This document shows, one piece after another, positions 1,100 through 20,346 of a stretch of 20,803 bases of DNA. Under the pieces are notes generated by a model. The model saw only the letters and a list, made by a program, of their open reading frames with translations, was not told the DNA's origin and made no database searches. Source of the stretch: a virus; the IMG/VR virus record IMGVR_UViG_3300043161_000061, positions 1 through 20,803 of that record; one strand, given 5' to 3'. The position numbers and the translations under genes are program-made. Each line of letters opens with the position of its first letter. The stretch's first letter is position 1.

Positions 1100-1559
1100 C
1101 AGCCGCTCTACCATTCGGCGCCTGCGGGCCGAGCTGCTTCTGCGGGGCTGGAATTAGCGGCTCGTGCTCGATAGTGACCGCGTTGGCATAATTGACCACA
1201 TTGACGCGGATCGGGCTGCCATCGTCGCCAGCAACTACCAGCCGATCGTTGTAGACTTTCGGCAAGAGCTTGGCCGCCGCCCATTTCCGGCTGTCGCACA
1301 TGACCCGGCGGGAGTCGGGCGGGAGTTCCTGGTCGTCCGCGATCGTCACGACCTCGGCTGCGTATTTGTGCGCCAGCATCTCGCGGGCGCGGGCATAAAG
1401 CAGCGCCCATTCTTCCGATGTCGTCAGCCATTCGTATGGTGCGGCCCGGGCAACACCAACTTGTTTGCAGGCCTCGGCGAGCGGCACGCCATCGGCAACC
1501 AGCTTCGCCAGCTTCTCGCCGGTCTCGGGCTTGTAGATGCACGGGTTTTTCGTGCTCAT
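1092..1559 (-). CDS. terS: Phage terminase small subunit (element A)
   Basis: A 155-residue protein that should recognise phage DNA and load it onto the large terminase subunit. Residues about 15-60 contain a helix-turn-helix pattern (LAEACKQVGVARAAPYEWL) followed by a short helical region and a conserved-looking DSRKWAAAKLLPKVY segment, as in terminase small subunits of alphaproteobacterial phages. The ATG at 1559 overlaps the stop of the upstream gene as ATGA, and its own end overlaps the start of terL by 8 bases. The position directly before terL supports the call. The C-terminus is proline- and glutamine-rich and probably flexible. Confidence 0.85.
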   Translation of the reverse strand: MSTKNPCIYKPETGEKLAKLVADGVPLAEACKQVGVARAAPYEWLTTSEEWALLYARAREMLAHKYAAEVVTIADDQELPPDSRRVMCDSRKWAAAKLLPKVYNDRLVVAGDDGSPIRVNVVNYANAVTIEHEPLIPAPQKQLGPQAPNGRAADA

Positions 1560-1789
1560 TCCACGCCTTCCGGCACCATAACTTCGCCCGGCGGCTCGCC
1601 ATCAGCGATGGCCTCCTCGATGGCATCAAGCGCCGCGGTCCGGGCGTCTCTTGCGTACCACTCGGCCGTCCTCGCACCCTCGCCGTGGATCTCAACAGCT
1701 TTGTCCCCGCCGACCATCGACAGCCGCGCCGCCTCAACGCCCATCAAAGGCGCCCAGAACTTGTATTCGTGGTAGTGCCGCCCTCTCAC
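1556..1789 (-). CDS. Hypothetical late-operon protein, 77 aa
   Basis: A small acidic protein of 77 residues that I do not recognise. It starts at a GTG that overlaps the stop codon of the 874-residue gene (GTGA) and ends in an ATGA overlap with terS, so it is surely translated as part of the late operon. The middle contains an amphipathic alanine/glutamate helix (around RTAALDAIEEAIADGE). There is no membrane segment or cysteine pattern. Its place between a virion protein and the terminase suggests a structural accessory role, but this is inference. Confidence 0.7.
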   Translation of the reverse strand: MRGRHYHEYKFWAPLMGVEAARLSMVGGDKAVEIHGEGARTAEWYARDARTAALDAIEEAIADGEPPGEVMVPEGVE

Positions 1790-4410: not shown

Positions 4411-4411
4411 C

Positions 4412-4675
4412 TCAGCGCCGCGCCCCGTGCGAAATCTGGTCGAAGGTCAGGGTCACCTGCGCCGGGCTATGCGACACTTCCACTTCCATCACCGTCACCC
4501 CGGTCGAGCTAGGTTTTGTCGTGCTAGGTGTGGTCGTGGTCGGCGCTGCCGTGCTCGACGAGCCGTAGGTGTACCCGCTCGCCAGCGCGTTGTTGAACGC
4601 GCCAGCATCGAGCACCAGCATGTCGGGCGCGCCCGGCTTCGATAACCACACCGGGAAATGCGCTGGCGTCGTCAT
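4412..4675 (-). CDS. Hypothetical protein with one [FY]P module, 87 aa
   Basis: The N-terminal part (residues about 6-36, beginning HFPVWLSKPG) matches a module that occurs three times in the next gene upstream. It has F/Y-P, a short beta-like stretch, a turn, a hydrophobic strand and a helix ending in Gly. A threonine/serine/proline linker at about 38-57 separates it from a C-terminal strand-rich tail (VTVMEVEVSHSPAQVTLTF). The start overlaps the upstream stop as ATGA, and the 874-residue gene begins one base after its own stop. No function is known to me. Linker-separated small beta modules in a late operon suggest a virion decoration or head-fibre role, which is a guess. Confidence 0.65.
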   Translation of the reverse strand: MTTPAHFPVWLSKPGAPDMLVLDAGAFNNALASGYTYGSSSTAAPTTTTPSTTKPSSTGVTVMEVEVSHSPAQVTLTFDQISHGARR

Positions 4676-5082
4676 GCGGCCGCGGGCGGCGGCGCCGGGG
4701 TATCGAGTGGGCCGACCAACCTTTCGTGCTCCTCGCGGCTATGCACGGTGACCTGTTGCAAGCCGCCGGAAATCGAGATTGTCATCGGATATTCCGGCGG
4801 TGCCTGAATTTTGCCGGCCTTTGCCAGCTTCAATTCCCGCTCATCGTTCACGATCATCCGCTCACCGTTTCCGAGCGTCAGCCACATCGGAAATTGCTGC
4901 GGTTGGTAACCGCCAGGCGCACCGTTCCGCGATTGGGCATAACCGTCAGGATCGCTTCGGCCACGCCGCTCATAACCCTGCTCCCGAAACCGCTTCTCGT
5001 CGGCTTCGGTGGCTGCCACCACGGCCGGCCGATCGGGATGCTGGAGCATCACCGGGTATTCGTGAAAACCAGTTTCGCTCAT
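4672..5082 (-). CDS. Hypothetical protein with three [FY]P modules, 136 aa
   Basis: A 136-residue protein holding three copies of a roughly 30-residue module: residues 8-38 (HEYPVMLQHPDRPAVV), 63-92 (QFPMWLTLGNGERMIV) and 97-125 (EYPMTISISGGLQQVTV). Each is Y/F-P, a short strand, a glycine/proline turn, a hydrophobic strand, then a charged helix. I recall similar YP-x-L-YHP modules in other phage proteins, without a function. A glycine/glutamine linker separates copies 1 and 2, and the tail is proline/alanine-rich. The ATG at 5082 is the likely start. In the older, unshifted frame the preceding gene would end 12 bases upstream of it, giving a tight operon. Confidence 0.65.
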   Translation of the reverse strand: MSETGFHEYPVMLQHPDRPAVVAATEADEKRFREQGYERRGRSDPDGYAQSRNGAPGGYQPQQFPMWLTLGNGERMIVNDERELKLAKAGKIQAPPEYPMTISISGGLQQVTVHSREEHERLVGPLDTPAPPPAAA

Positions 5083-5792
5083 CGATTTCTCCCGTCACCA
5101 AATCCGCTTTGACCCGAGTTCCGCTTGGCGGCGCACCAAGTAGCTTTCCATCGATTCCTCGCGTCTCGGCCGAGCGGGAGTTGCCTGCCGCGGCGTCTCG
5201 GCTTTCGTTGATCTCGTCGAGCCATGCGGGCGGCGCGCTTCGGCGATCTCCGCGCTACGGCGTCGCAGGTAGGTGTCGTTGTCCTCGGCATCCTCGTCCC
5301 GCTTCGCCCCGGCGAAGCGGCCAATGGTTGCCGCGAGCTTGCCGATTTCGACCGATTGCAGACTTGGGGCGAGTTTCGCGATCCGGGCCGCTTCGGTTGG
5401 GTTTTCGCCGAGATAGCGCGCGACCGAACGGCACTACCGCTGCCCAACAACGCCGCGCCCATCGCGTGAGTAATCTGCAATGACGGATTGTTGATCGTCG
5501 CCCTGACTTCGGGGCCGGCCTTCGCGAGCTGCGCCTCCCATTGCGTGCCGATCTCGCGGACGGCGGCGGCGGCTGCCTGCTGATCGCCTACAGCGGTGGC
5601 TCGATCCAAGCGCGCAAGGCCGTCTGACAGCTTATCCGGTGCTACAGGAACCGGCGCCGGGGGCGGTTGCTCGATCACCGGCGAGTCGGAGGTCGATGAC
5701 AGTGCCGGGCCAGTGCGCGCTGGCTGAGAGAGGTTGATATCGAGCTTCTCGACCGGAGCCAGATAGCTCGCGGCGCGCAGAGTGTCGGTCAT
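5079..5792 (-). pseudogene. Frameshifted late-operon protein
   Basis: The open frame from the ATG at 5792 (TAATG overlap with the previous stop) reads well for about 120 residues, ending MGAALLGSGSAV. It then turns into an arginine/serine/proline-rich stretch of over 100 residues with no protein-like pattern. Another minus-strand frame, open from 5433 to a TGA at 5095, continues plausibly: ARYLGENPTEAARIAKLAPS, then EIGKLAAT, and a charged tail ending LVRRQAELGSKRIW. This ARYLGENP-type segment is one I recognise from hypothetical late proteins of alphaproteobacterial phages. A single-base indel between about 5421 and 5433 would rejoin the two halves. Both outcomes are possible: a real loss of function or a sequencing error. 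An ATG at 5816 also exists, but 5792 fits the operon better. Confidence 0.7.
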
Positions 5793-5983
5793 TACGAAGC
5801 CCCCGGCGCAGGGCACCTTACCGACGCATCGTTCGCCGCCTCAGCCGCTTCGGTGCGGACGATCGAGCGCGTCGCGCCCTGCAATAGACGCTGCGCCAGT
5901 CGGAAGGACTGGGTAGGCGAGAGCTGCACCGCTCCGCCCTTCACAACCAGCGTGAGGTTATCGGTAAGCTCGACAGAAGGCAT
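5792..5983 (-). CDS. Hypothetical small protein, first gene of late operon, 63 aa
   Basis: A 63-residue unrecognised protein: an N-terminal strand-like part (VELTDNLTLVVKGGAVQL) followed by a helical segment (SFRLAQRLLQGATRSIV). It resembles small phage proteins placed before head genes, but no family is clear. Its stop shares one base with the ATG of the next gene (TAATG). A GGAG lies about 10 bases before the ATG. The palindrome at 6003-6015 and hairpin at 6033-6057 sit just upstream, so this is probably the first gene of the late operon. Confidence 0.65.
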   Translation of the reverse strand: MPSVELTDNLTLVVKGGAVQLSPTQSFRLAQRLLQGATRSIVRTEAAEAANDASVRCPAPGAS

Positions 5984-6002
5984 GAGCAGAACGCTCCGAA
6001 AC

Positions 6003-6015
6003 TTGTCCGAGACAA
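6003..6015. promoter_or_regulatory. 13-bp palindrome upstream of late operon (candidate operator)
   Basis: TTGTC-CGA-GACAA is a perfect inverted repeat with 5-base arms, lying about 20 bases before the ATG at 5983. Its place at the head of the late operon suggests a binding site for a regulator. No convincing -35/-10 pair is seen beside it. Confidence 0.3.
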
Positions 6016-6032
6016 AGGATCGGGAGCGGTTT

Positions 6033-6065
6033 GGGAAGTTTTTAGAATTAACTTCCCACTTTTTT
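6033..6065 (+). terminator. Hairpin with T-run, plus orientation
   Basis: GGGAAGTT (6033-6040) pairs perfectly with AACTTCCC (6050-6057) over a 9-base loop. Six T residues follow on the plus strand (6060-6065), so it is a terminator only for rightward transcripts. The minus-strand gene ending at 6048 has its stop codon inside the loop/stem, and no T-run follows on that strand. It may block antisense transcription or act as a weak bidirectional end between the resolvase transcript and the late operon. Confidence 0.45.
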
Positions 6066-6497
6066 CGCGCGGCGCTGCTTCAGGATTTCCCTATGCCAGC
6101 GGGCACTCGGAAGCTTTACGCCGGTCCGCATCATCTTCCGCAGCAAGTCGCGCTCTGGATTGCCGGTGTTTTCCGGCTTGTCGTGCTCATGGGGCCAACC
6201 TTCCGCGGCGTAGCGCTCAAATTTCACCCGGGCCAGCCGAATGCGCTTGCTTTGCTTGCCCGGCTGCAAATTGGTGAATTCGCGCACCAGCTCGTGCTGC
6301 TCCTGAACCCGTTGCGATACGGGGCGACCACCGCGGCGCTTCGACTTCGGCGGCCGGAACATCGCTAGAAAGTATTCCACTCCCTCGATGAATTCCGACT
6401 GCTCGATGGCGTCGCGGCATTCGATGTCCGCGCTGGCGAGCATGAACGTGTGCAAGGCCCGGCGCGCACCCTCGCTCTCTGGATACCTGATGGTCAT
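6048..6497 (-). CDS. Hypothetical protein downstream of recombinase, 149 aa
   Basis: A basic, helix-rich protein I do not recognise. The first 50 residues carry acidic helices (ECRDAIEQSEFIEGVEYFLA). The second half is strongly basic (RPPKSKRRGGRPVSQR, then RWHREILKQRRAKK near the end), suggesting nucleic-acid or protein binding. The ATG at 6497 lies 11 bases after the stop of the serine recombinase, so both are probably made from the promoter at 7175-7203. It could be a recombinase accessory factor or a late regulator; the sequence alone does not decide. Confidence 0.6.
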   Translation of the reverse strand: MTIRYPESEGARRALHTFMLASADIECRDAIEQSEFIEGVEYFLAMFRPPKSKRRGGRPVSQRVQEQHELVREFTNLQPGKQSKRIRLARVKFERYAAEGWPHEHDKPENTGNPERDLLRKMMRTGVKLPSARWHREILKQRRAKKVGS

Positions 6498-6508
6498 GAA
6501 CGTGCGCC

Positions 6509-7150
6509 CTACCCCCGAAGCATCGCCTTAACCGACTGCGGGCCATAGTGGTTGCCGGAAGGGCTGCAATAGCCGGCAGCGGCCAAGCGAGACGCGATCT
6601 CCCGAAGCGCCAAGCCATCGGAGCGCAGAGCGGCGGCAAGCCCGCGGGCAGCCTCCGGAGCGGGTTTCCGCCCCTCGCAGCGGCCCTCCCTCGCCCGCTT
6701 GCGCTCACGGGCGCCCCGCAGCTTGGCAACGATGCTGGCCTTCTCGAATTGGCTCACGGCGCCGAGAATTTGCCGGATCAAGGTCCTTGTCGGGGTTTCC
6801 TCGGTGAAGCTGTCCGGGTCGTCGGCGGCGATCAGGGTGTAGCCGAGGTCGCGCAGATAGCTGTAGCCGGTTTCCTGCACGATCAGGTCACGGGCGAAAC
6901 GGTTGGCCGTCTCGACGATGATCGTCCGAACGCCATTGCCGGCTATCGTCGCGAGCATGTCGGCAAAGCCCGGCCTGCTCTCGATGCGGTCGGCGCCCTT
7001 GACCTTGGCGTCATAGAACCAGCCGGCGATCTCGATGCCGTTGGCGTCGGCATAGCCCTGGATGGCGAGCCGCTGGCGTGTTTCCGAATCCTTGTCCTCG
7101 CCAACATTGGCCGCCGAGCTGGTGCGCATGTACCCGAATGCCTTGGTCAT
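6509..7150 (-). CDS. Small serine recombinase (resolvase/invertase type)
   Basis: A 213-residue serine recombinase that cuts and rejoins DNA at short crossover sites through a 5'-phosphoserine link. The catalytic start YMRTSS gives nucleophile S11 (or S12). The conserved arginines lie in RPGFADML (R59) and ANRFARD (R84, R87). A long E-helix (TLIRQILGAVSQFEKASIVAKLRGARERKR) leads to a short C-terminal helix-turn-helix of about 40 residues (LREIASRLAAAGY). The length fits resolvases/invertases rather than large serine integrases. An AGGAG lies just before the ATG and a near-consensus promoter further upstream. Because the element already has a tyrosine integrase, a role in dimer resolution, inversion or regulation is more likely than integration. 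Confidence 0.9.
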   Translation of the reverse strand: MTKAFGYMRTSSAANVGEDKDSETRQRLAIQGYADANGIEIAGWFYDAKVKGADRIESRPGFADMLATIAGNGVRTIIVETANRFARDLIVQETGYSYLRDLGYTLIAADDPDSFTEETPTRTLIRQILGAVSQFEKASIVAKLRGARERKRAREGRCEGRKPAPEAARGLAAALRSDGLALREIASRLAAAGYCSPSGNHYGPQSVKAMLRG

Positions 7151-7174
7151 GGGCGGTCTCCTGAACGCCCGGAA

Positions 7175-7203
7175 ATCCTAGCAATTCAACCCGTCTCTGT
7201 CAA
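7175..7203 (-). promoter_or_regulatory. Sigma70-type promoter of the serine recombinase
   Basis: On the minus strand TTGACA (7198-7203) is separated by exactly 17 bases from TAGGAT (7175-7180), close to the bacterial consensus. The ATG at 7150 is about 25 bases downstream of the -10 box, so the leader is short. It is the best promoter seen in element A. Confidence 0.65.
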
Positions 7204-7204
7204 C

Positions 7205-7216
7205 ATTCTTCAGAAT
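7205..7216. promoter_or_regulatory. Perfect palindrome next to the -35 box (candidate operator)
   Basis: ATTCT-TC-AGAAT, arms of 5 bases, begins two bases upstream of the TTGACA box of the recombinase promoter. A dimeric regulator, perhaps the recombinase itself, could bind here. It is short enough to occur by chance. Confidence 0.3.
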
Positions 7217-7342
7217 AATGACATCCTTAATTTGTTGCCATGCTGTTCCGGGGGGTTGGTGGAATTTCCAGCCACGCGGGGGAGTCTCAATCTCGTCACG
7301 CAATTGCGGTCAACTCCGCCCGGCTTTTTTTTCGGAGGGGCC

Positions 7343-7420
7343 ATGTGCACACTGAGTCTCCTACTCGGCTCGACCATCGCGGCGTTCGCTTGGCTCGTGG
7401 CGGTCTGGTGCTGGAGCTGA
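7343..7420 (+). CDS. Candidate tiny plus-strand membrane peptide, 25 aa
   Basis: An ATG at 7343 follows a strong ribosome-binding sequence (GGAGGGG, ending 2 bases before the ATG, with CGGAGG usable at 4-5 bases). It opens a 25-residue frame that is one hydrophobic segment, LLLGSTIAAFAWLVAVW, ending with TGA at 7418. Its last 60 bases are antisense to the end of the 126-residue gene. A T8 run lies just before the ribosome site. Small membrane peptides of this size are common in phages, for example holin- or toxin-like ones, but chance cannot be excluded and no plus-strand promoter is clear. Confidence 0.3.
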   Translation: MCTLSLLLGSTIAAFAWLVAVWCWS

Positions 7421-7741
7421 ACCGAAACTCCCCAGCCGCCTCGCCACTGCCGCAGTCAATTCGCCCGCTAGCCGGATTGCGCGGGCAGGGTCGAGCACCA
7501 CCGCAACAGCCTCGGCCTCCCGATACAGCGTGAGCGTGATCCTCTCGCCATCGTCGGCGATCACCACGCGGTCGGCCGGCGCGACCTCATCGCTGCCGGG
7601 CAATGCGTCGATCGCCACCAGCGCGCCCTGCACGTTCCCCAGCAGGGCAAGGGTGCCACCGTCCACCTGGCAGCCGAGGTCGGCGACAAGCTGGTGACGC
7701 AACTCGACCAAGCGTTGTCGGGTGTCGCTGCGGTCATTCAT
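7361..7741 (-). CDS. Hypothetical protein, 126 aa
   Basis: A 126-residue unrecognised protein with good protein-like composition. The N-terminal helix (TRQRLVELRHQLVADLG) is followed by an alpha/beta pattern (ADRVVIADDGERITLTLYRE, then AVAVVLDPARAIRLAGELTAAV). The C-terminal tail is rich in Pro, Arg and Ser and probably disordered. The ATG at 7741 is about 60 bases after the small gene upstream. It lies in the early/accessory block between the replication genes and the recombinase. No function can be assigned. Confidence 0.6.
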   Translation of the reverse strand: MNDRSDTRQRLVELRHQLVADLGCQVDGGTLALLGNVQGALVAIDALPGSDEVAPADRVVIADDGERITLTLYREAEAVAVVLDPARAIRLAGELTAAVARRLGSFGSAPAPDRHEPSERRDGRAE

Positions 7742-7802
7742 CGGCTAACCAGCGATGCACAGCGCGCGTGCGCGTCGATGTTGCCACGCGGGCCTGTGTG
7801 GC

Positions 7803-7964
7803 TTAGCTCGTTTTGATGCAGTGGTAAGTCCAGCGACCATGCTTCACGTGGGTAAGCGCTGCAATTGTCTCCTCCGCCCCAGCGGAACACGTCTGCTCGG
7901 TCGAAAAACCGGGGACAGTGATGACCGTCTGCGTGATGAGGGATATGACGATGAGTACCCACAT
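7803..7964 (-). CDS. Small exported or membrane-anchored protein, 53 aa
   Basis: The ATG at 7964 is set by a perfect AGGAGG (7973-7978) 8 bases upstream. The frame could extend to 7988, but that start has no such site. The 53-residue product begins with a hydrophobic segment (WVLIVISLITQTVITVPGF, residues 2-20) like a signal peptide or membrane anchor. A small domain with two cysteines (C26, C49) follows, which could form a disulfide in the periplasm (QTCSAGAEETI and WTYHCIKTS). Similar short proteins with a signal segment and two cysteines are frequent in alphaproteobacterial prophages. The function is unknown; an effect on the envelope or superinfection is only a guess. Confidence 0.65.
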   Translation of the reverse strand: MWVLIVISLITQTVITVPGFSTEQTCSAGAEETIAALTHVKHGRWTYHCIKTS

Positions 7965-8088
7965 GGCGTTTTCCTCCTGGACCAGCATGGCTGTGCCGTC
8001 GCGCTTGATAGGCGATGGTTGTTGTCATGTTTTCAAGGCCAAGGATTGGCCGGCCGCCGAGGGGGTCGCGCGCGCCTGCGCGTCTGCG

Positions 8089-8787
8089 TCAGCCATGCCG
8101 CGCGCACATCGTCTGTCCGGGGAGCGCGGGTTTGGCGCAGCCGGTGCCGAGGGGCCATCGACAGATCGGGGTGTCACCACCCGAGGCAACACCCGCGCCG
8201 TTTACCTTCTCTGCACGGTTCGGCTGCTCAGCCTCACTCCGAACAGCCTCAGCACTAACCTCAGTGCCATAACCCCCCTCTTCCTTGAGACTGTCGCTGC
8301 CCTGGTAAGAACTTCTATAGAGCGCCTTCCCTTCGGTAGGCAGATTTCCGCTAGGCTCTGCCTTCCCTTCGGTAGGCAGTTTTGAGCCATCTGCCTTCCC
8401 TTCGGTAGGCAGCCCTGCCTCACTTTCGGTAGGCAGATTTCCCGGTTTCCGGAACTCGCGCCATGCGTTGCTCGGGGTGCTCCCGTCATGGAGCGGGAGC
8501 CAGGTCAACTCGTAAGTGGTGGCGATCCGCAGACCGTGGCGATGACAGACGACCAACCCACTTTCCTCGGCTTCGCCGATTGCGGCTGTGACATGTCGTG
8601 GGGCAATACCGAAAGCCACAAGCTGACGGCACGGCGCCTTCAGGTTGCCGTTTTGCCGACCACCGCGCCGCATGTGCTCGATCATCAGGAATCGCACGAC
8701 TCGGAATCCGTTGATGCCGAGCGATCCGAACACTGCGCTTTCCAGCACATCGCGCGGCAGTTTGATAAACTGCTCTTTGCCGCTCAT
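8089..8787 (-). CDS. Winged-helix, replication-type protein with repeat linker
   Basis: A 232-residue protein. The first ~100 residues resemble the helix-turn-helix domain of phage replication proteins of alphaproteobacteria (FRVVRFLMIEHMRRGGRQNG, then FGIAPRHVTAAIGEAEESGL, then a beta wing TTYELTWLPL). Residues 118-156 are a linker with four LPTE-type repeats (three full LPTEGKA), matching the DNA repeat at 8322-8436. The C-terminus carries C209, C217, C228 and H231 in a pattern like the tail of GcrA (CRWPLG...CARHG). The start overlaps the primase stop as ATGA. It probably works with the primase and helicase in starting phage replication, by binding the origin; this is inferred from fold and position. 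Confidence 0.6.
   Translation of the reverse strand: MSGKEQFIKLPRDVLESAVFGSLGINGFRVVRFLMIEHMRRGGRQNGNLKAPCRQLVAFGIAPRHVTAAIGEAEESGLVVCHRHGLRIATTYELTWLPLHDGSTPSNAWREFRKPGNLPTESEAGLPTEGKADGSKLPTEGKAEPSGNLPTEGKALYRSSYQGSDSLKEEGGYGTEVSAEAVRSEAEQPNRAEKVNGAGVASGGDTPICRWPLGTGCAKPALPGQTMCARHG
8322..8436. repeat. Four in-frame copies of a 22-bp palindromic repeat
   Basis: Plus-strand copies CTGCCTTCCCTTCGGTAGGCAG or variants start at 8322, 8358, 8391 and 8415. The outer six bases are inverted (CTGCCT/AGGCAG) except in the first copy. Starts are 36, 33 and 24 bases apart, all multiples of three, so the reading frame of the host gene is kept and each copy codes LPTEGKA or a variant. They could be protein-binding iterons of an origin, hairpins in the mRNA, or an expanding mobile repeat. 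Confidence 0.75.
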
Positions 8788-9698
8788 GGCCGCCCCCGCT
8801 GGTTGAGTACGTCGAGCCAGTCGGTATCGGCGATCGGCGGAACGTGAACTTCGACGGTGATCCCGTCGCGATTGGCCCGGTGTGCGAGCTGATAGGCGGC
8901 GGACTGGCCGACATAATTCGCATCGTTGTCGGCGAAGACATGCAGCCGCAGCAGCCCGCGCGGCGGCTCAAATGTCTTGATGCCGTTGGCGGTCAGCGCG
9001 GCCCATACCGGCACCCGGAACAGCTCGTGCGCGGCGAGCGCGTTCTCGACGCCCTCGGCAACGCCGAGGTCTTCGTCCGGCTCTTGCAGGCGGACTGCGC
9101 CGCCGTTGATTGTCGAAACCGCGGGCAAGCTCTTTTTGCGCGGCTCGACCTCGGCGTCATAGATGCGATGCGCCGATTGCAGGCTCCCCTCCGGCCCGAT
9201 GATCGGCGCCACGACCGCTGGGTAACGGCCGACTAGATGCCGATCGTCATCGAAATACGGGCAGCGGGCATCGCCGCGCAGCACCGATGAGGTGACGGTA
9301 AGACCGCGGTGCTGGAGATAGGCGGCGGCGACGCCGGGATCGCGAGCCTCAGCCAAGGCACGCTCAATCGCCCGTAATCGGCGCCCTGCATCGTCCTTCT
9401 CGACTGCCTCAGGTCGCTCTATTGGGCGAACCTCGCCGAGTATCTTGTCGATGGCGTCGCACGCGGTCTTGAAATTCCAACCGTGCTTTTTGCGAATCAA
9501 GATGATACCGGCGCCGGCCCCGCATTGCCCGCAGTAGTAGGTTCCCTCTCCGTCCTTATCGTCGAACCGGAACCGATCCTTGCCGCCGCAGAGCGGGCAG
9601 GGTCCGTGCTTTTTCGTCAGGAACCGCGTGTCGATGCCGAGTTGCGGGAGGATCTCACGCCAGCGGTGACGGGCGCGCTCGATGGTTTCGCCGCTCAT
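8784..9698 (-). CDS. Phage DNA primase (zinc finger plus Toprim)
   Basis: A 304-residue primase that makes RNA primers for phage replication. The N-terminus has a CHC2-like zinc ribbon with C34, C37, C56 and C59 (CPLCGGKDRFRF, then YYCGQCG). A Toprim domain at about 208-285 follows: the catalytic glutamate in VAEGVENA (E215), the D-x-D motif in FADND (D257, D259), and a final DTDWLDVL. This layout matches the short P4-type/DUF7146 primases of prophages. No helicase domain is fused; a separate SF2 helicase is encoded just upstream with an ATGA overlap, and the replication-type protein follows with another. All key residues are present, so it is probably active. Confidence 0.88.
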   Translation of the reverse strand: MSGETIERARHRWREILPQLGIDTRFLTKKHGPCPLCGGKDRFRFDDKDGEGTYYCGQCGAGAGIILIRKKHGWNFKTACDAIDKILGEVRPIERPEAVEKDDAGRRLRAIERALAEARDPGVAAAYLQHRGLTVTSSVLRGDARCPYFDDDRHLVGRYPAVVAPIIGPEGSLQSAHRIYDAEVEPRKKSLPAVSTINGGAVRLQEPDEDLGVAEGVENALAAHELFRVPVWAALTANGIKTFEPPRGLLRLHVFADNDANYVGQSAAYQLAHRANRDGITVEVHVPPIADTDWLDVLNQRGRP

Positions 9699-11206
9699 GC
9701 GGAGGCCCGCTGTTTGGCTTGCGCTTTGGCGTAGGCGATCTGTCGGGAACGTACCCAGGCGCGAACCGCATCGTCAGGCGGCGATGGTTCGGCGAAGCGC
9801 CACGAGGGCCATGCCCCGAATTTTTCGCGGAACTTGTGAGCGGCCCATCCCTGCTGGTAGCCGCGCTCGCTGGCGATGTAGAGGAGCTGACCAAAGAAGC
9901 GCCGCTGATCGATCGCCGCGGCAACGATACTGCGGTCGCGCTCCACCCTGCCGAGATCGCCATCGATGACACCAACGGCGGCTGGTTTCGGCCGCGGGCG
10001 CCAGCCGCAGGCGCGACACGCCTGGCCCTCGAACCGTATGGCGTGACACTCCGGGCAGTCGGTCAGTCCTGGTGTCTTGTAGGCGAGGCGAGCGGCGTGT
10101 GCCGGGTTCTCAGCACGCCGATCCTCGTGCAGGGTCCACCGGATCGGGTCATCCGGGAAGCCGTGCTGAAATACCGCCCCGGCATGGTCGAGGATGATGC
10201 AATCCGTCTTACCCGGTGCGGAGCGCAAGCCGCGCCCAATCATCTGCCGATAGAGCCCGAGGCTTTTTGTCGGCCGAGCCAGCACGAGGCAGCCGACATC
10301 GGGCGCGTCGAAGCCTTCCGTCAGGACCAGACAGTTGCAGACGATCTCCACCTCGCCGCGAGCGAGCCGGACGAGAATGGAATCCCGCTCTTCGGTCGGC
10401 GTGCTACCGTCTATGTGCTCTGCCAAGACGCCGCTGCGCCGGAATTCGTCTCTGAGGTGAACCGAATGGGCGACGCTCGTGGCATAGACGATCGTTGACC
10501 GTCGCTCGGCGTGCCGGTGCCAATGGACGACGATATCGCCGACCAGTTGCGGCCGGTCCATTCGTTCCGCGAGCTGGCCCTCGTCATAGTCGCCCTGGCG
10601 GATGCGAATGCCATCCAGATCCGGCCGGGTCGGCGCGTAAATCCTTGGCCGTACCAGCCAGCCGGCCGCGGTCAATTCGCCGACATCCGGGCATTCGACT
10701 AGGACATCGAAGACGTTGCCGAGACCTCGGCCATCGCCCCGGCACGGGGTCGCGGTCAAACCAACCACCACCGCGCGCGGGTATTCCTGCAGGATACGCC
10801 GATAGGTCCGGGCGCGGGCGTGGTGAGCCTCATCTACAACCACGATGTCGGCGATCGGCATGTCGATAGACGAGGAACTGATTGCCCGCGCACGTAACGA
10901 GGCGATGCTCGCCACCTGCACCGGCTCGGTCAGCCGCATCGGGTGGCCGGGCAGGATGATTCCGGCATCGACACCAGCCGCATGAAGCTTCCGCGAGGCT
11001 TGATTGATCAACTCGCGGCGATGCGCCAGGAATAGAACCCGCCGCGAACGCCGCACCGCATCGGCAATGAATGCGGCGGCAATGACGGTCTTCCCGGAAC
11101 CGGTCGGCGCGACTAGAAGGATATGTCGGCGGCCGGCGACAATCTCGGCGTTGACGCGCTCGATTACGTCGCGCTGATAAGGGCGAAACTCGGGAGCAGC
11201 GCTCAT
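9695..11206 (-). CDS. SF2 DEAH-type helicase with zinc motif
   Basis: A 503-residue ATP-dependent helicase for phage replication. Motifs from the ATG at 11206: Walker A APTGSGKT (33-40), Ia-like LAHRRELINQ, Walker B DEAH (125-128), motif III TAT (151-153), and motif VI QMIGRGLR (321-328). Next comes a four-cysteine zinc motif (C384, C387, C397, C400; CPECHAIRFEGQACRACGW), which many phage members of this SSL2-like group carry. The open frame extends up to 11431, but the ATG at 11206 overlaps the previous stop as ATGA, and the extra N-terminus is arginine-rich and unlike protein. The gene is complete and couples to the primase. Confidence 0.9.
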   Translation of the reverse strand: MSAAPEFRPYQRDVIERVNAEIVAGRRHILLVAPTGSGKTVIAAAFIADAVRRSRRVLFLAHRRELINQASRKLHAAGVDAGIILPGHPMRLTEPVQVASIASLRARAISSSSIDMPIADIVVVDEAHHARARTYRRILQEYPRAVVVGLTATPCRGDGRGLGNVFDVLVECPDVGELTAAGWLVRPRIYAPTRPDLDGIRIRQGDYDEGQLAERMDRPQLVGDIVVHWHRHAERRSTIVYATSVAHSVHLRDEFRRSGVLAEHIDGSTPTEERDSILVRLARGEVEIVCNCLVLTEGFDAPDVGCLVLARPTKSLGLYRQMIGRGLRSAPGKTDCIILDHAGAVFQHGFPDDPIRWTLHEDRRAENPAHAARLAYKTPGLTDCPECHAIRFEGQACRACGWRPRPKPAAVGVIDGDLGRVERDRSIVAAAIDQRRFFGQLLYIASERGYQQGWAAHKFREKFGAWPSWRFAEPSPPDDAVRAWVRSRQIAYAKAQAKQRASA

Positions 11207-11616
11207 TGCCGGTTCTCCAATCCGGCAACAAAGCCGCGGAGGAGCGCGCGCGCGCTCTCCTCTGCGGCCTTTAACGCATTGAATTGATGCTTCGGAAGGT
11301 GATCCTCGATCGCGAGCCGCACTAACGTCCGGAGCGTGTCGGGCTCGATGGCGTCGAGTTCGACGGAGATTTCGCCGAAGCCTCTGGCGCGGGTGTCGCG
11401 AGCTTTGGTCGGGCGCGTCGGAAGATCCCAAGCCTCAATCTGTCCCGGCGTGACGGCGAGGCGCTCGAAATGGATATCGGCATCGGGCTGACGGCGAAGG
11501 CGCAGAAACGCTTGCGATTGCGCGGCAGACGTGCCAGATAAGCGGTGTTCCAGGCCGCTATTGACATCTGCCGCACTGCCGGGTCGCAACCCCGGCAGTT
11601 GCGGCGCTGCGGTCAC
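11203..11616 (-). CDS. Truncated Toprim/Spo11-like family fragment, 137 aa
   Basis: The GTG at 11616 overlaps the stop of the AlpA-like gene (GTGA) and gives 137 residues. The C-terminal ~90 residues (FERLAVTPGQIEAWDLPTRP, then GEISVELDAIEPDTLRTLVR) match a segment I know from the C-terminal part of phage-encoded Toprim or Spo11/TopoVI-A-like hypothetical proteins, where a D-x-D core normally stands upstream. Here the N-terminal ~45 residues are low in structure and show no Toprim motif, so the gene looks truncated or rebuilt. The family name is from memory and moderate in confidence. It is followed by the helicase in an ATGA overlap, so translation is likely. Confidence 0.55.
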   Translation of the reverse strand: MTAAPQLPGLRPGSAADVNSGLEHRLSGTSAAQSQAFLRLRRQPDADIHFERLAVTPGQIEAWDLPTRPTKARDTRARGFGEISVELDAIEPDTLRTLVRLAIEDHLPKHQFNALKAAEESARALLRGFVAGLENRQ

Positions 11617-11798
11617 GCCGCGTCGCCGAGGGCTTTGATTGATTCGACGCTGACGAGGCGCATGCCGCCAACCTTGGCGGTCTTCAGCTTCCCGTCGTTG
11701 ATCAGCTCGTAGCAACGGGTTAAGCCGAACCCGCCGATTTTAGCGGCCCTTTTAGGTCTGACCCAGATCGGCTCGGGCGTGTCGTTTGTTCGGTCCAC
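11613..11798 (-). CDS. AlpA/excisionase-like DNA-binding protein, 61 aa
   Basis: A 61-residue helix-turn-helix protein of the AlpA/MerR-excisionase type: RPKRAAKIGGFGLTRCYELI carries the turn, followed by a basic beta wing DGKLKTAKVGGMRLVSVES. It starts at a GTG with GGAG about 8 bases upstream. Such proteins stand between integrase and replication genes, where they act as excisionase or early activator. Its stop overlaps the start of the next gene (GTGA), so it heads the replication operon. Confidence 0.75.
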   Translation of the reverse strand: MDRTNDTPEPIWVRPKRAAKIGGFGLTRCYELINDGKLKTAKVGGMRLVSVESIKALGDAA

Positions 11799-11922
11799 AG
11801 AAGGCTCTCCGGTATATTTCGCTGCCGTTCGACAGCAACCGGCGCCCTATATGAAGCAACTACCTGACGCGCCCTAAATGTTTAAAATTGCGTGATTAGA
11901 AATCTTTTCTGGATTTAGCTCG

Positions 11923-12261
11923 TCATTGATTTTGTGGCCGTTCGCTGAACCGCTTTTTGTATGGTTCCCTCAGCGGCCAACCCGTAAGCGGTGGTCTACC
12001 GCGATCTGTTTGGTAGACCCGTTGGTACGCGGTCGTGAAATCCTCCATTTTGAATTTGCCCAGCGAACTTGCGAGCGCGAGCGTGAGATCCAGAAGCCCT
12101 TTTTTCTGTTTTGGCGGCCCCTGGTCTGGATGCTGCTCAAAGATCCATTCGGCCAAGCGATCCGTTACATTAAGCTCGGCCTCCGTGCGTTCCGGCGTGA
12201 TCTGTTCCGGGCACGCCATGTTGTCGGGCACTTTGATGCGGTCTCTTGCCCACTCCTCCAT
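11923..12261 (-). CDS. Hypothetical early protein, 112 aa
   Basis: A 112-residue protein of unknown function, with lower GC than its neighbours. The middle section is helical (LLDLTLALASSLGKFKMEDFTTAYQRVYQ), followed by a basic C-terminus (REPYKKRFSERPQNQ). No signal or membrane segment is seen. The ATG at 12261 has no strong ribosome-binding site. The 124 bases between it and the AlpA-like gene are AT-rich and may hold the promoter of the replication operon. The composition suggests more recent acquisition than the replication genes. Confidence 0.6.
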   Translation of the reverse strand: MEEWARDRIKVPDNMACPEQITPERTEAELNVTDRLAEWIFEQHPDQGPPKQKKGLLDLTLALASSLGKFKMEDFTTAYQRVYQTDRGRPPLTGWPLREPYKKRFSERPQNQ

Positions 12262-12279
12262 AGAGGGTTCTGGTACTAG

Positions 12280-12585
12280 CTATTTCCGGCGGTTCCCCCA
12301 AGCCGCTCGGTCCACTCGCAGATTTGTTGCGCGGACCAGCTTCGATTCACCGTCGATGACCAACCTAAACACAACCGCGTTGTGCGGGTATTTGATTGCG
12401 CCAGCCGCCCACCATGACGGTTCAATTTCCGTCGCAATCCCGTCAATCGTGGCCCGAACCGGCGGTAATTGCCCGGTCGCCAGCAAGTCACTCATTTGAC
12501 TAATGGCCGATTGCAAGTCCACGTCGCAGATCACGCGCAAATCGTGGATGGCCTCTATTACTGTTGTAGTTTCAAGGTCAGGCAT
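12280..12585 (-). CDS. Hypothetical early protein, 101 aa
   Basis: A 101-residue unrecognised protein with a clear alpha/beta pattern: an N-terminal helix (TTTVIEAIHDLRVICDVDLQSAISQMSDLL) and a C-terminal sheet (NAVVFRLVIDGESKLVRATN). It is preceded by GGGGGCGCG before the ATG at 12585 and lies 97 bases after the integrase gene on the same strand, so it may share its transcript. Function unknown; its place beside the integrase suggests an accessory early gene. Confidence 0.6.
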   Translation of the reverse strand: MPDLETTTVIEAIHDLRVICDVDLQSAISQMSDLLATGQLPPVRATIDGIATEIEPSWWAAGAIKYPHNAVVFRLVIDGESKLVRATNLRVDRAAWGNRRK

Positions 12586-12681
12586 CGCGCCCCCGTGGGC
12601 GTCCGCAAGAATGGTCGCGGCGGCAGTCTGGTGCGGGTGTCCGGACGTTCGGGAGCTACCCTAGCCGTCGCGATGGGAGTG

Positions 12682-13854
12682 CTATCGACTAGCGCGTAAT
12701 GGCAACACCTCGGCGGGAGTAGGCGGGTTGGTGCAGTATTTTGCCCATGCGTCGGCTAACTGCCGTCGTTTCTGGAATAGATCGCCGCGGCGGTAGGCTG
12801 CCTCGACGGCGTTTGGGATCTTATGCGCCAGCGCCGCTTCCGCGACCTCGCGGGCGAAGTTCGTCTGCTCGGCCGCCCAATCCCGGAAGCTCGACCGGAA
12901 ACCATGGATTGTCACGGTGGCGCGGCCCATCCGACGCAACAATTCCCACATCGCTTCGGTGGTGATCGGGCGACCCGTCTTCCCGCCGGGAAAGACAAAA
13001 TCGCTCTGCCGGATTTCTGCCATCGTCTTGATGACCTCGATCGCTGGAGCCGACAACGGCACCCGATGTTCGCGGTCACCCTTCATGCGCTCTGCCGGGA
13101 TAATCCACACCCGGTCGGCTATGTTGATTTCATCCCACCGAGCACCCGCCACTTCGCTGGCGCGCGCGGCGGTCAGGACCACCAATTGCAGCGCCATCGC
13201 ACCGATGCCCGGCTCGTCCTGCAGCTCGACCAGGAACTCCCCGACCTTGGGGTAAGGCATGGCTGCGAAATGCTTCACCCGGCGCACCTTGCCGCGTGAC
13301 GGGAGTAGCTTTTCGAGATGCCCACGCCAGCGCGCCGGATTTTCACGGCTGGCGGTTTCGGGCTTCTCGGTCCAGATTGGCTCGATCGCCTTCATCACTA
13401 ATCCGGTGTCGATCGCCTGGATCGGAAGGTCGCCGAGAACCGGGTGAGCATACGCGGTCAATGACCCGGTCCACGCCTTCGGGTGCTTCGCGCTCTTCCA
13501 GCCTGCCCGGTGCGCGGCAATGTAGCGGTCAGCACATTCTCGAAACGTGACGGTGGCGGCTACTGCAAGCTTGGCCTGTGTGCGTCCAGCCCTGCGGGCC
13601 TCAATCGGATCAATCTCGTCAAGACGCAGCTTTCGACACTCCTGCGCCTTCTCCCGCGCTTCGGCGAGCGAGATGGTATGCAGCGGGCCGAGGCCCATGT
13701 CGTGTAACTTGCCATCGCGCCGATATCTGAAGATCCAGCTCTTTGAGCCGGTCGGGCCAATCCTCAGATAGAGGCCCCCGCCATCGGCGAGAAAACCCGG
13801 CTTCGTCGCCTTCGCGGCGGTGACGGCTTTGAGCCGATTAATTGCCCTTGCCAT
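12682..13854 (-). CDS. P4-type tyrosine integrase, probably internally deleted
   Basis: Site-specific recombinase that inserts and excises the element. The N-terminal DUF4102-type arm-binding domain (FLADGGGLYLRIGPTGSKSW) is intact, and the catalytic residues are present: R231 (TAARASEV), K258, H317 and R320 (HGFR), H344 (LAHK) and Y354 (AAYRRGD). Between residues 170 and 171 the family's usual helix (roughly 20 residues, of the RVRGRIEAVLDWA type) is missing: IWTEKPETASR runs straight into ENPARWRGHL. The frame is kept. This removes part of the core-binding domain, so activity may be lost. The family call is firm; the deletion is judged from memory of close homologues. The start at 13854 is an ATG. 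Confidence 0.9.
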   Translation of the reverse strand: MARAINRLKAVTAAKATKPGFLADGGGLYLRIGPTGSKSWIFRYRRDGKLHDMGLGPLHTISLAEAREKAQECRKLRLDEIDPIEARRAGRTQAKLAVAATVTFRECADRYIAAHRAGWKSAKHPKAWTGSLTAYAHPVLGDLPIQAIDTGLVMKAIEPIWTEKPETASRENPARWRGHLEKLLPSRGKVRRVKHFAAMPYPKVGEFLVELQDEPGIGAMALQLVVLTAARASEVAGARWDEINIADRVWIIPAERMKGDREHRVPLSAPAIEVIKTMAEIRQSDFVFPGGKTGRPITTEAMWELLRRMGRATVTIHGFRSSFRDWAAEQTNFAREVAEAALAHKIPNAVEAAYRRGDLFQKRRQLADAWAKYCTNPPTPAEVLPLRASR

Positions 13855-14032
13855 GATGGGACCTGCACCGCTTTGTCCATACGATGTACCATACTCTAGC
13901 GCCGATTTCGGCCGAACGCAATCGAACGATTGTGAAAGACCGACCGCCGTAATCTATTGTGATCGTGAGCTTTATGCGGATGACAGCGGTTGATATCGAA
14001 AGGCCGGCGAGAAGATAGGCGAGGATCTGCAT
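13838..14032 (-). CDS. Small membrane peptide ORF at the element A/B junction, 64 aa
   Basis: An ATG at 14032 follows an AAAGGAG (14039-14045) at 6 bases. The product begins with a hydrophobic helix (ILAYLLAGLSISTAVI), then strand-like ITIDYGGRSFTIV, and ends in a basic tail. The last 17 bases overlap the integrase start. It lies directly behind the terminator of element B, so it may be a small phage gene or the head of a B gene cut by insertion of A. No homologue is recognised; the good ribosome site is the main support. Confidence 0.4.
   Translation of the reverse strand: MQILAYLLAGLSISTAVIRIKLTITIDYGGRSFTIVRLRSAEIGARVWYIVWTKRCRSHHGKGN
13878..13932. other. Direct repeat and palindrome upstream of integrase (candidate att/arm sites)
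   Basis: CCATAC occurs twice 12 bases apart (13878-13883, 13890-13895), and CAATCG-AA-CGATTG (13919-13932) is a perfect palindrome with 6-base arms. They lie between the integrase start and the edge of element B, where P4-type integrases usually have attP. No copy is seen elsewhere in the window, so they are only candidates. Confidence 0.3.
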
Positions 14033-14149: not shown

Positions 14150-14527
14150 CTATTTGCGGTCCTGCTTGTGGACGAGGTCGGTCTTCAGATCGGCGATCGC
14201 CTGCATGACCCGCTGCAGCTGCGTGCGCATCTCGGCCTGAAATTCGCGGTCCTCGGTGCGGCGCTCGTCGAGGAGACGCTCGGCGACGGTGAGGCGCGCC
14301 TCGTGCCCGGCCAGCGCCACACGGAACTCGGCGCGCTGCTGGTCGAGATCGGCGCGCAAGCTCAGATAGCCGCCGAGAATGCCGCCGCCGACCGTGGCGA
14401 TGACGACGATCGCCTGCACCAGATGACCAAGGTTGATGTCGGGGGTGAAATGCGGGTGCAGCATCGAGAGCCAGGCGGAATCGCCGCCGTGGAGCGGCGG
14501 CAAGGGATGGTCGGCATCGTTGGTCAT
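14150..14527 (-). CDS. Membrane-anchored coiled-coil phage protein, 125 aa
   Basis: Residues about 35-55 form one membrane helix (AIVVIATVGGGILGGYLSL). Residues 57-115 form a long charged helix likely to be a coiled coil (QQRAEFRVALAGHEARL, then RRTEDREFQAEMRTQLQRV). Small proteins of this plan stand at the end of tail/lysis regions in alphaproteobacterial prophages. A role beside holin or endolysin is possible but not shown; no lysozyme gene follows. The ATG at 14527 is 11 bases after the tail-gene stop, and terminators follow its end, so it closes the operon. Confidence 0.6.
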   Translation of the reverse strand: MTNDADHPLPPLHGGDSAWLSMLHPHFTPDINLGHLVQAIVVIATVGGGILGGYLSLRADLDQQRAEFRVALAGHEARLTVAERLLDERRTEDREFQAEMRTQLQRVMQAIADLKTDLVHKQDRK

Positions 14528-14537
14528 GGCATGCCCG

Positions 14538-16232
14538 TCATAATGTGCCCGCCAAGGTCCAGGCGAGGTTGGCGAGGGTCGCGTCGGCCGGCGTGGGCCC
14601 GGCGATGGTGAGGACGTCGCCGGCGGCGAAACCGGTCGCCGCGCTCATCGTGAAGCTCGCGGAAGCGGCGCCCGCGGCGAATGCCATCGTGCCGATTGCC
14701 GTGCCGTTCTTGGCGATCGTGAAGGTGGCGCTGGCGGTCGCCGCGGTGCCGGCGGTGCCATAGCTGCCGCCGAGCCCGGCCGGAAAGGTGACCGGGGTCG
14801 CGAAGATGTAGCGCTCGACCACCTCGCCGGCGGCGGGGCTCCCGGCCCAGGAGCCGGAGACATAGGCCGGCCCCTGCACCGCGCCGTCGCCCGTTAAGGT
14901 GTAGCCGGTCGGGGTCAGCCCGGCCAAGGACTGCATCGCCTGGCCGAAGATGTTGAAGGCCGGCAATTTGACGTGGATGGTCTGGCCGACAAAGTTCGCG
15001 GGATAGACGTATTTGAACAGGGACGGGTCGTTCGGCCCGAAGCGGGCGAAACTGGCGCCATTGGAATGCGCGCCGATCGGGGTGCCGTAAACCCCGCGGC
15101 GCAGATAGGTCAGGTTGTATTTGTAGGGCGCGGTCAGGGTGGCGGTGGCGAAGGCGACAAGTTCGGTCTTGTCGTCGACGCCGGCCGCCGTGTAGCTCGC
15201 CGTGGCCGGGAACTGCCACTGCGCCCAGCTGCCGGTGCCGACGATCTGGATGCCGACCGATTGCGGTCCGCGGTTGACGACATTGCCGGCGTAGGTCGGG
15301 TTGATCAGGACATTACGCGTGCTTGCGGTCGCGCTGATCGCGGTGGTGCAATTGAAATAGGGCGAGACAAAGCTGTTCTGGCCGTCATGGTTGAAGCTGA
15401 TGCCGAGACAGGTGGGCGAAGCTTCCATGTCGAAGGCGAAGACCGTATTGGCGAAGTTGAAGCCGTTTTCGAGCAGCAGCGCGATGCCGCCGGTGCCGTT
15501 CGCCGAGCCGGCGCCGGAGATGCGCGAGAATTGCGTCTGCTCGAGCGCGAGGCCGGCCGCGCCGCCGGCGCTGTCGGCGACGGCAAAGATGTCGGCGTCG
15601 AGGACGTAATTGAGCTGCAACCCGCCGGCCGCGGTGGCGGTGGAAGCGTTGTTGACGACGAGATGGTCGGTCTTGATCGAATTGTGCGCGTCGGAAAAAT
15701 CGCTCTTGCCGATGACGACCGCGTAGGCGGGGGTATCGGCGTCGACGAAGAGCGTGCCTTCTTCCTTGAAGTAGAAGCAATTGGCCGGGCTCGCCGTCGT
15801 GCCGCCCGAGCATTGCACCTGCAATACCGGCCCGGAGGCAATCGTGCGCCCGTCGATCGTGGCGCCCTCGGAAATCAGCCGAAAGCCGCTGCCGGACTGG
15901 CCGGCGTAGTCGATCGTCAGCTCCGCGGTGACCTTGTATTTGCCCGCGGGAATGTGCACCGGCCAGTCGTTGGCGATTGCGGCGTTTATCGTGGTTTGGA
16001 TCGCGCTGGTATCGTCGTGGCTGTCGTCGCCGACGGCGCCGTTACAGCGCACGTCGAGCCACGGCCGGCCCGAACACATCAGCACGTCGCCGTTGAGGGT
16101 CGCGGTGGCGGTGGTCGACAATGTCGAGAAACTGCCGGGCGACTGCGCCTTGGCGGGCGTCGGCAGCCAGACGCCCGGGATCAGGATGCCGATCAGGCTG
16201 ACGGTCAATGTGAACAGACGAGTGAGCCGCAT
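14538..16232 (-). CDS. Chimeric beta-helix/tail-tip protein with signal peptide
   Basis: A 564-residue protein from the ATG at 16232. Residues 1-30 are a typical signal peptide (basic start, hydrophobic core, PAKA-Q cleavage). Residues about 55-350 begin like pectate-lyase-type beta-helix proteins (NGAVGDDSHDDTSAI, then VHIPAGKYKV) and continue with strand repeats. Residues 360-450 resemble the C-terminus of GTA/phage tail-tip hub proteins (YLRRGVYGT, SLFKYVYPANFVGQTIHVKL, FNIFGQ). Residues 475-564 are an alanine-rich beta module (FPAGLGG, IAKNGTAIGTMAFAAGAA) found at the end of tail fibres. It may bind or cut surface polysaccharide. A signal peptide on a tail-type protein is unusual. The longer start at 16283 lacks the signal-peptide logic. 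Confidence 0.7.
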   Translation of the reverse strand: MRLTRLFTLTVSLIGILIPGVWLPTPAKAQSPGSFSTLSTTATATLNGDVLMCSGRPWLDVRCNGAVGDDSHDDTSAIQTTINAAIANDWPVHIPAGKYKVTAELTIDYAGQSGSGFRLISEGATIDGRTIASGPVLQVQCSGGTTASPANCFYFKEEGTLFVDADTPAYAVVIGKSDFSDAHNSIKTDHLVVNNASTATAAGGLQLNYVLDADIFAVADSAGGAAGLALEQTQFSRISGAGSANGTGGIALLLENGFNFANTVFAFDMEASPTCLGISFNHDGQNSFVSPYFNCTTAISATASTRNVLINPTYAGNVVNRGPQSVGIQIVGTGSWAQWQFPATASYTAAGVDDKTELVAFATATLTAPYKYNLTYLRRGVYGTPIGAHSNGASFARFGPNDPSLFKYVYPANFVGQTIHVKLPAFNIFGQAMQSLAGLTPTGYTLTGDGAVQGPAYVSGSWAGSPAAGEVVERYIFATPVTFPAGLGGSYGTAGTAATASATFTIAKNGTAIGTMAFAAGAASASFTMSAATGFAAGDVLTIAGPTPADATLANLAWTLAGTL

Positions 16233-16417: not shown

Positions 16418-16861
16418 TCACCAGCGGCGGGCGGCGAAGGCCTGGCCGGTCGTGCCGCCGTAAAGGCTGACCGGGCCGGCCGGCTTGTAACCCGAGGGCG
16501 TGAAAAACAGGCCGCCATTGGCGGCGATCTGGATGCTCGCCCCGCCGTTGGAAGCGGCGCCGATGTCGGACACCCACAAAGCCGCCGCGGAATTGTTCTG
16601 CACCAGATAGCCGTTCACCGGCGCCACGCCGCCAAACAAGGTCTGGGCGCTGCCGCCGGTCGCGACCGCGCCGCTGCCGTCACTGGCGGCGACGCCGGCG
16701 GTATTCACCACCGGCAGCGGGTTTTGCGGTCCGACCGGACTGGCGACGCCCTGCGCGTTAGTCGAGGCCGGCGCGTGCACCGGCACGAGGTTGCCGTTGC
16801 AATCGAGCTCGGTCGACAGCGGCTGGATCGTGGTGTTGGCGTCTTTGACCAAGAGCGTCAT
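16418..16861 (-). CDS. Small phage virion-type protein, 147 aa
   Basis: A 147-residue, Gly/Ala/Ser/Asn-rich protein with a beta pattern (TLLVKDANTTIQPLSTELD, then VNGYLVQNNSAAALWVSDIG, then IQIAANGGLFFTPSGYKPAG). This composition is common in short phage decoration or fibre-like proteins. I recall similar short proteins next to tail genes in Rhizobiales prophages, without a function. It lies 13 bases after the large terminase and before the repeat. No cysteine, signal or membrane segment is obvious. Confidence 0.6.
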   Translation of the reverse strand: MTLLVKDANTTIQPLSTELDCNGNLVPVHAPASTNAQGVASPVGPQNPLPVVNTAGVAASDGSGAVATGGSAQTLFGGVAPVNGYLVQNNSAAALWVSDIGAASNGGASIQIAANGGLFFTPSGYKPAGPVSLYGGTTGQAFAARRW

Positions 16862-19680: not shown

Positions 19681-20346
19681 ATGGATGCGACCTGGTTTCA
19701 ACAGGCCCTCGACCGGGCCGGTGCCAGCCAAGCCGATCTCGCCCGTCATCTGCGCCTCGCGCCATCGGCGATCTCGCGCATGCTGAAGGGCGAGCGGCAG
19801 ATGAAGCTCTTGGAGGCGGTGCAGGTCGCCGCCTTTCTCGGGGTCTCGCAGGAGGAAGTGCTGCGCCATGCCGGGGACGGCGCCCCGCCGGCGCCGCGCA
19901 CCGAGCCGCCGCGTCGCGGCCGCCCGCCCCGCGCCGGCATCGTGCCGGCCGCCCCACCCAGGGCCGAGCCGATCCCGATCCGGAGCGCCGCGCGCGGCGG
20001 CGGCGAGCAGGAGATGTTTCTGGAGGACGGGCCGATCGGCTACACCGCGCGGCCCAACAATCTGGTCGGGGTACGCGGCGCCTATGCGATCTATATGGTC
20101 GGCGACTCGATGGAGCCGCGCTATCAGCAGGGCTGGCTCTTGCACGTCAACCCGTTCAAGCCGCCGACCCGCGGCCGCGACGTCGTCGTCTACAAGAGCG
20201 ACAAGGCGGTGCTGATCAAGCAGTTCCTGCGCTGGGACAATGACGCGCTCGTATTGCGCCAGCTCAACCCGGAGCAGGAATTGCGCATCCCGCGCAGCGA
20301 GGTCAGCGAATGCCACCTCGTCGTCGGCGTCGACCAGGAGGGGTGA
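19681..20346 (+). CDS. LexA/CI-type phage repressor
   Basis: A 221-residue repressor. The N-terminal XRE helix-turn-helix (ASQADLARHLRLAPSAISRML, about 15-36) binds DNA. A Pro/Arg/Ala-rich linker at about 67-105 follows, then an S24 peptidase-like domain with nucleophile S143 (VGDSMEP) and K180 (VLIKQF). Damage-induced self-cleavage would normally occur at an Ala-Gly; an AG lies at 85-86 (RAGIVPA) in the linker, but this assignment is tentative. It faces a leftward operon across a shared promoter, as in immunity regions, and presumably keeps element B silent. The ribosome site before the ATG is weak. Confidence 0.88.
   Translation: MDATWFQQALDRAGASQADLARHLRLAPSAISRMLKGERQMKLLEAVQVAAFLGVSQEEVLRHAGDGAPPAPRTEPPRRGRPPRAGIVPAAPPRAEPIPIRSAARGGGEQEMFLEDGPIGYTARPNNLVGVRGAYAIYMVGDSMEPRYQQGWLLHVNPFKPPTRGRDVVVYKSDKAVLIKQFLRWDNDALVLRQLNPEQELRIPRSEVSECHLVVGVDQEG

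Follow-up and report, generated by a model that had tools for sequence, protein, structure and literature searches.

An in-frame fusion of an exported spike-like gene and a tail-hub gene that is probably the scar of a prophage deletion

Layout and domains of the fused gene

The stretch analysed here (the window) comprises the 20,803 nucleotides of the IMG/VR virus record IMGVR_UViG_3300043161_000061 and carries on its minus strand, at positions 14538–16232, a gene for a protein of 564 amino acids (aa), with its ATG at 16232, the motif AGGA directly ahead of it and the stop codon at 14540–14538. Four elements could be recognized in this protein, all of them scoring above chance. Residues 1–29 (16146–16232, minus strand) form a predicted Sec signal peptide, MRLTRLFTLTVSLIGILIPGVWLPTPAKA followed by Q, in which two arginines precede a strong hydrophobic core and an AxA cleavage site (AKA/QSPGSF); signal peptides were called throughout by a simple in-house scoring of sequence features, not by a dedicated predictor. 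The mature front part, residues 30–356 (15165–16145, minus strand), corresponds to a pectate-lyase-like beta-helix and is matched in Pfam by PF12708 at residues 58–109 (E=6.6e-7). The back part, residues 357–564 (14541–15164, minus strand), resembles the tail hub of gene transfer agents (GTA). It holds most of a Pfam match to PF23666 (Rcc01698_C) at residues 345–395 (E=3.9e-9), which covers only model positions 45–97 of 98 and is therefore incomplete, and fibre-end modules at residues 461–563 (PHROGs, E ~1e-14).

The original prediction had described a mosaic of four parts, namely a signal peptide, a pectate-lyase-like region, a hub C-terminus and a fibre end. All four are present according to Pfam, PHROGs and the signal peptide scoring, but the first two come from one parent gene and the last two from another, so that by sequence comparison the fused gene is of two parts by origin and not of four.

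Two parent genes in the relatives

The two-gene origin was established by comparison with relatives in IMG/VR. A search with the whole 564-aa protein as query returned 14 loci. Thirteen of them align with the front of the query, up to about residue 361, and the remaining one (L015) aligns with residues 357–564 only. A second search with residues 375–564 returned 30 loci. In the relatives the frame of the front parent continues for about 500 residues beyond the point where the window breaks off, to a total of about 860 aa, and this extra part contains four repeat domains, each of about 115 residues, followed by a short tail-protein-like C-terminus (PHROG 17312), all of which are gone from the window protein. 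A structural model of this parent, a multi-domain chain (mean predicted local distance difference test score, pLDDT, of 65), gave weak Foldseek matches with low template modelling (TM) scores to tailspikes and to beta-helix proteins acting on polysaccharides, and these matches, together with that to PF12708, point to a beta-helix in the spike-like protein. The gene comes after those for the small and large terminase subunits (TerS and TerL) wherever that DNA was covered, and a gene for a 147-aa protein lies between TerL and the signal-peptide gene in all loci except L010, where it was not detected.

The back parent is a separate gene as well. Its frame opens 157–169 codons ahead of the matched part in 15 of the 17 loci in which it was extended and earlier in the other two (L030 and L034), and the open reading frames (ORFs) read residue by residue encode about 346 aa with a start of the MPGTI or MTGTI type. 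In L015 it is preceded by an NlpC-like protein and by a hub body with PF13550, and there the intact Rcc01698_C match covers model positions 3–97, as against 45–97 in the window. Since this domain and the fibre end both lie inside the one 346-aa parent, the supposed third and fourth parts belong to a single gene, which was severed halfway through its first domain. The gene for a 125-aa protein follows within about 10 bp in relatives such as L018, L019 and L027, as it does in the window. In seven loci (L038, L039–L042, L044 and L045) the hub C gene matches the first ~78 query residues only, and the fibre-end module was apparently swapped.

Both parents occur as separate genes on one strand in four contigs, in which the points corresponding to the fusion are 21,813, 16,454, 17,483 and 16,899 bp apart. 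One contig (3300025320_000141) comprises both L002 and L015, whose matches lie about 22 kb from each other on the same strand. The DNA between the two halves in the intact relatives encodes the portal, the prohead protease, a protein at the position of the major capsid protein and tail genes.

The junction and its flanks

The junction was placed by aligning the window with relatives of the signal-peptide gene and with relatives of the hub gene. It falls between T356 and E357 (15165/15164, within 15159–15168, minus strand), where the parents share about 2 bp (CG) as a possible microhomology, and it cuts Rcc01698_C in half while keeping the frame. A 27-mer spanning the junction has no other copy in IMG/VR, and the fusion was seen in none of the 13 loci of the signal-peptide gene and in none of the 30 hub loci of that database.

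Both outer flanks are syntenic with the relatives. Upstream lie, in the order CI-TerS-TerL-147-aa gene, a CI-like S24 repressor (19681–20346, plus strand), placed by its synteny in the relatives, the small and large terminase subunits of the same element, phage A (18142–18615 and 16875–18239, both on the minus strand and identified by domain and PHROG matches and by synteny), and the conserved 147-aa protein ending in AARRW (16418–16861, minus strand). Downstream, at a distance of about 10 bp, the 125-aa protein with a hydrophobic segment (14150–14527, minus strand) follows the fused gene, and beyond it the next phage A gene (MQILAYLLA..., 14000–14032, minus strand) is represented by its start only, being broken at about 14003; it is longer in L025 and L015. 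Neither portal, protease, capsid and tail genes nor the PF13550 hub body and the NlpC-like peptidase, both present in L015, were found between TerL and the 125-aa gene of the window. Conversely, neither TerL nor the 147-aa gene nor the signal-peptide gene was found in the upstream DNA examined at the 30 hub loci. The absence of virion genes between these flanks marks phage A as a terminase-bearing remnant; as the terminase is kept and the portal, protease, capsid and tail genes are gone, this element can hardly form virions by itself.

An artificial origin of such a join, in which an assembler connected two regions of one or of two related phages and no natural fused gene exists, finds some encouragement in the record, which consists of one virus contig, and in the junction, which has no second copy in IMG/VR. 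Against it stand the preserved frame, the flanks in the order and orientation expected of a single deletion, and the ~2 bp shared by the parents, far under an assembly k-mer. Assemblers need longer shared words than this, which favours illegitimate recombination as the easier source of the join, and we infer a true genomic event and regard the misjoin as unlikely.

Origin and fate of the fusion

On these grounds the 564-aa protein would be the scar of a prophage deletion, a reading to which we give a probability of about 0.78. The ancestral order would have been CI ... TerS-TerL-147-aa gene-[spike-like gene with signal peptide, ~860 aa]-portal-...-protease-capsid-...-tail-hub-[346-aa hub C gene]-125-aa gene-next gene. 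A single deletion at short homology in a degenerating alphaproteobacterial prophage would then have taken out the spike gene from codon 357 onwards, the front of the hub C gene and all DNA between them, 16.5–21.8 kb to judge from the four intact relatives, and left an in-frame fusion. The product would probably be exported and then degraded or remain inert, because the four repeats and the C-terminal end of the spike are lost and only half of the hub domain is left.

Three points weigh against the deletion scar. The ORF is open and in frame across the join, for which the chance is one in three; the join is known from the assembled contig alone; and the ratio of non-synonymous to synonymous differences (pN/pS) of the window relative to its relatives (0.24–0.37 for the front and 0.22–0.48 for the back) is just slightly above that between intact relatives (0.17–0.31 and 0.19–0.30, respectively), so that a clear signal of decay is absent and the values would also fit a gene that is kept. 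This lack of any clear sign of long decay is likewise consistent with a deletion, and the values fit one that is recent.

The alternative in which the fusion was selected, either as a domesticated secreted surface enzyme or as an effector that recruited the hub C-terminus as a new module, would account for the intact signal peptide, the open frame, the in-frame join and the want of a strong decay signal. It is nevertheless very improbable, given that there is one instance only, that the hub domain is cut midway, that the repeats and C-terminal end of the exported parent are lost and that the neighbours are exactly as a deletion would have left them. The domestication or effector use initially proposed for the mosaic hence finds no support: whole phages carry the intact signal-peptide protein as a regular gene, and its join to a hub C-terminus was seen only in the window, with the flanks of the deletion preserved.

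A second phage (B) occupies positions 1–13854 of the window and adjoins phage A, with an integrase (12682–13854), a helicase, a primase, a resolvase-like gene (6509–7150) and a second TerS/TerL-like pair (1092–1559 and 2–1114). Phage A ends inside the MQILAYLLA... gene and the integrase of phage B starts about 150 bp beyond, an arrangement that B could have created by inserting into A, or that a further deletion could have left. A search with this integrase found one distant relative and did not show the A/B joint to be an attachment site.

Conservation of the signal peptide

The N-terminus was compared in 10 distinct IMG/VR relatives (L005/L006 and L011/L012 being counted once each) and in a copy from a metagenome-assembled genome (MAG), read from L048 as MTRWVDRALAPAAFVLCLAFGWSALA followed by QSAGNF. 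All 11 of these intact relatives with a readable start have a signal-peptide-like N-terminus. The sequences are divergent, but the hydrophobic core and an invariant A-x-A/Q site are kept in every one of them, and behind the cleavage site the mature protein begins with the conserved QS(P/S/A)G(N/S)F(S/T)TL. A net positive charge ahead of the core is found in all 10 IMG/VR relatives but L011. The window protein shares with this family (L002–L014 and L046) a signal peptide with AxA/Q and the mature N-terminus QSxG(N/S)F.

The original prediction had noted that export is unexpected for a virion-type protein and had allowed for a misjudged start. Extended to the intact family, this would make its signal peptide an artefact and the protein a virion spike assembled in the cytoplasm. 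Some related fibre and SGNH proteins do lack a signal peptide, which would agree with such an artefact. Among the orthologues, no longer cytoplasmic N-terminus without a signal peptide was found; the signal-peptide properties and the AxA/Q site persist in 11 distinct relatives despite their divergence, and in L007 only one codon of open frame precedes the ATG, which leaves no room for a longer cytoplasmic form. A misjudged start was rejected on these two grounds and is extremely improbable; judged by this conservation, the signal peptide of the family is genuine, and just as unexpected for a virion-type protein as was supposed.

Other predicted exported proteins in the phage family

Further predicted exported proteins stand among the virion genes of the relatives. 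L002 encodes one of 150 aa (9888–10340) and an SGNH/GDSL hydrolase with a signal peptide (10334–11839; PF13472, E=8e-14; PHROG 9703 'head decoration', E=1e-15), which is located in the late region between the portal and the prohead protease; Caulobacter phage DMCA and Bradyrhizobium phage BDU-MI-1 encode homologues of this hydrolase whose N-termini lack a signal peptide. L004 carries a second beta-helix that is predicted to be exported (8090–9598), and L010 (7972–9861) and L038 (10882–12129) add others. In two places, behind TerL and behind the portal, a large exported protein is preceded by a protein of about 150 aa with AARxW at its end (L002, 9888–11839; L004, 7635–9598; window, 16418–16861), and the second, after-portal copy of this small protein looks exported itself.

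Similar proteins lie behind the hub. L030 carries, behind its hub C gene and ahead of the 125-aa gene, a 285-aa fibre-like protein with a signal peptide (12967–13824), which by eye has the same kind of repeat domain as the exported spike and has no match in cultured phages. L049, from the MAG that holds L046, encodes two such proteins behind the hub C gene. The first is a fibre without a signal peptide (1462–2277) that carries the repeat domain of the spike at 42–49% identity, and the second is fibre-like, 317 aa long and provided with a signal peptide (2277–3230). The few cases at hand suggest that the signal peptide was probably gained or lost more than once by related proteins. Tentatively, this family of temperate alphaproteobacterial phages may carry a set of Sec-exported spike, fibre and esterase proteins of virion type, encoded after TerL, the portal and the tail hub, that would be secreted or released free and not built into the virion in the cytoplasm, the same repeat domain serving also in a fibre without a signal peptide.

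Comparison with known systems and possible function

The back half of the window protein and the 346-aa parent match PF23666 of the megatron/tail hub Rcc01698 of the Rhodobacter capsulatus GTA (RcGTA), and in the intact relatives this parent adjoins the hub gene. In contrast with RcGTA, the present phage family usually encodes the hub C-terminus in a gene of its own, and the window keeps half of the domain, with the rest of the baseplate gone.

Pectate-lyase-like phage tailspikes are known to carry a virion-anchoring N-terminus. The spike-like protein resembles such tailspikes (CBA120 TSP4, phi92 gp150 and Dettilon gp208) in its PF12708 start, in its tail-spike PHROGs and in the weak Foldseek matches of the parent model, but its N-terminus is a predicted Sec signal peptide and its gene follows the terminase and not tail genes. 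A cytoplasmic, virion-anchored N-terminus without a signal peptide was found in none of the 11 readable relatives, where the conserved signal peptide stands instead.

The nearest published precedent found for a tail-type enzyme with a signal peptide is gp40 of Xanthomonas phage PBR31, an esterase related to tail hydrolases (PMC10975493). It differs in being a single enzyme discussed with lysis genes and not a beta-helix/repeat spike between the terminase and the portal. Literature searches gave no account of alphaproteobacterial phages with exported tailspikes, and the PBR31 esterase alone came close. The whole protein was found in no cultured phage in searches of phage collections, and among 385 surveyed genomes of one class only domain-level matches turned up, apart from the MAG holding L046.

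A functional parallel, and a model of what an exported protein could do, is offered by TspA of RcGTA, a detachable, phage-type tailspike that works in the free state as a depolymerase of biofilm (PMC13420450, preprint); it is released from the virion and not exported, and the term 'signal peptide' is absent from that report. The RcGTA head spike consists of the base Rcc01079 and the fibre Rcc01080, with the N-terminal anchor IALGLGLGL on the fibre (PMC7296036), and its combination of a small base with a larger carbohydrate-binding fibre could be a parallel to the 147-aa protein and the spike, although the signal peptide would send the protein described here out of the cytoplasm. The LGLGL anchor is absent from the mature N-terminus, QSPGSFSTLSTT, and the 147-aa protein, for which such a spike would call for a jellyroll fold, gave a model of low confidence (pLDDT 34) and no significant sequence match in the PDB. 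An RcGTA-like head spike, as suggested by the small-plus-large gene pair, was discarded for these reasons.

In the simplest view, the intact protein is most likely a late, Sec-exported spike- or enzyme-like protein, an assignment weaker than that of the fusion. Lysis would set it free, or it may leave the periplasm by another route, and as an adhesin or depolymerase it would then target polysaccharide at surfaces.

Implications

The fusion shows that a prophage deletion can mimic a new multi-domain secreted protein, which gene callers and domain searches would read as a real mosaic. The lead worth following is the intact family protein, tailspike-like, with a conserved Sec signal peptide and encoded among virion genes, and the interest lies in the pattern of predicted exported spike-, fibre- and enzyme-like proteins and not in the fusion. 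Should such proteins indeed get out of the cell at lysis or earlier, they would be phage-made surface enzymes or adhesins released by lysogens or by bursting cells.
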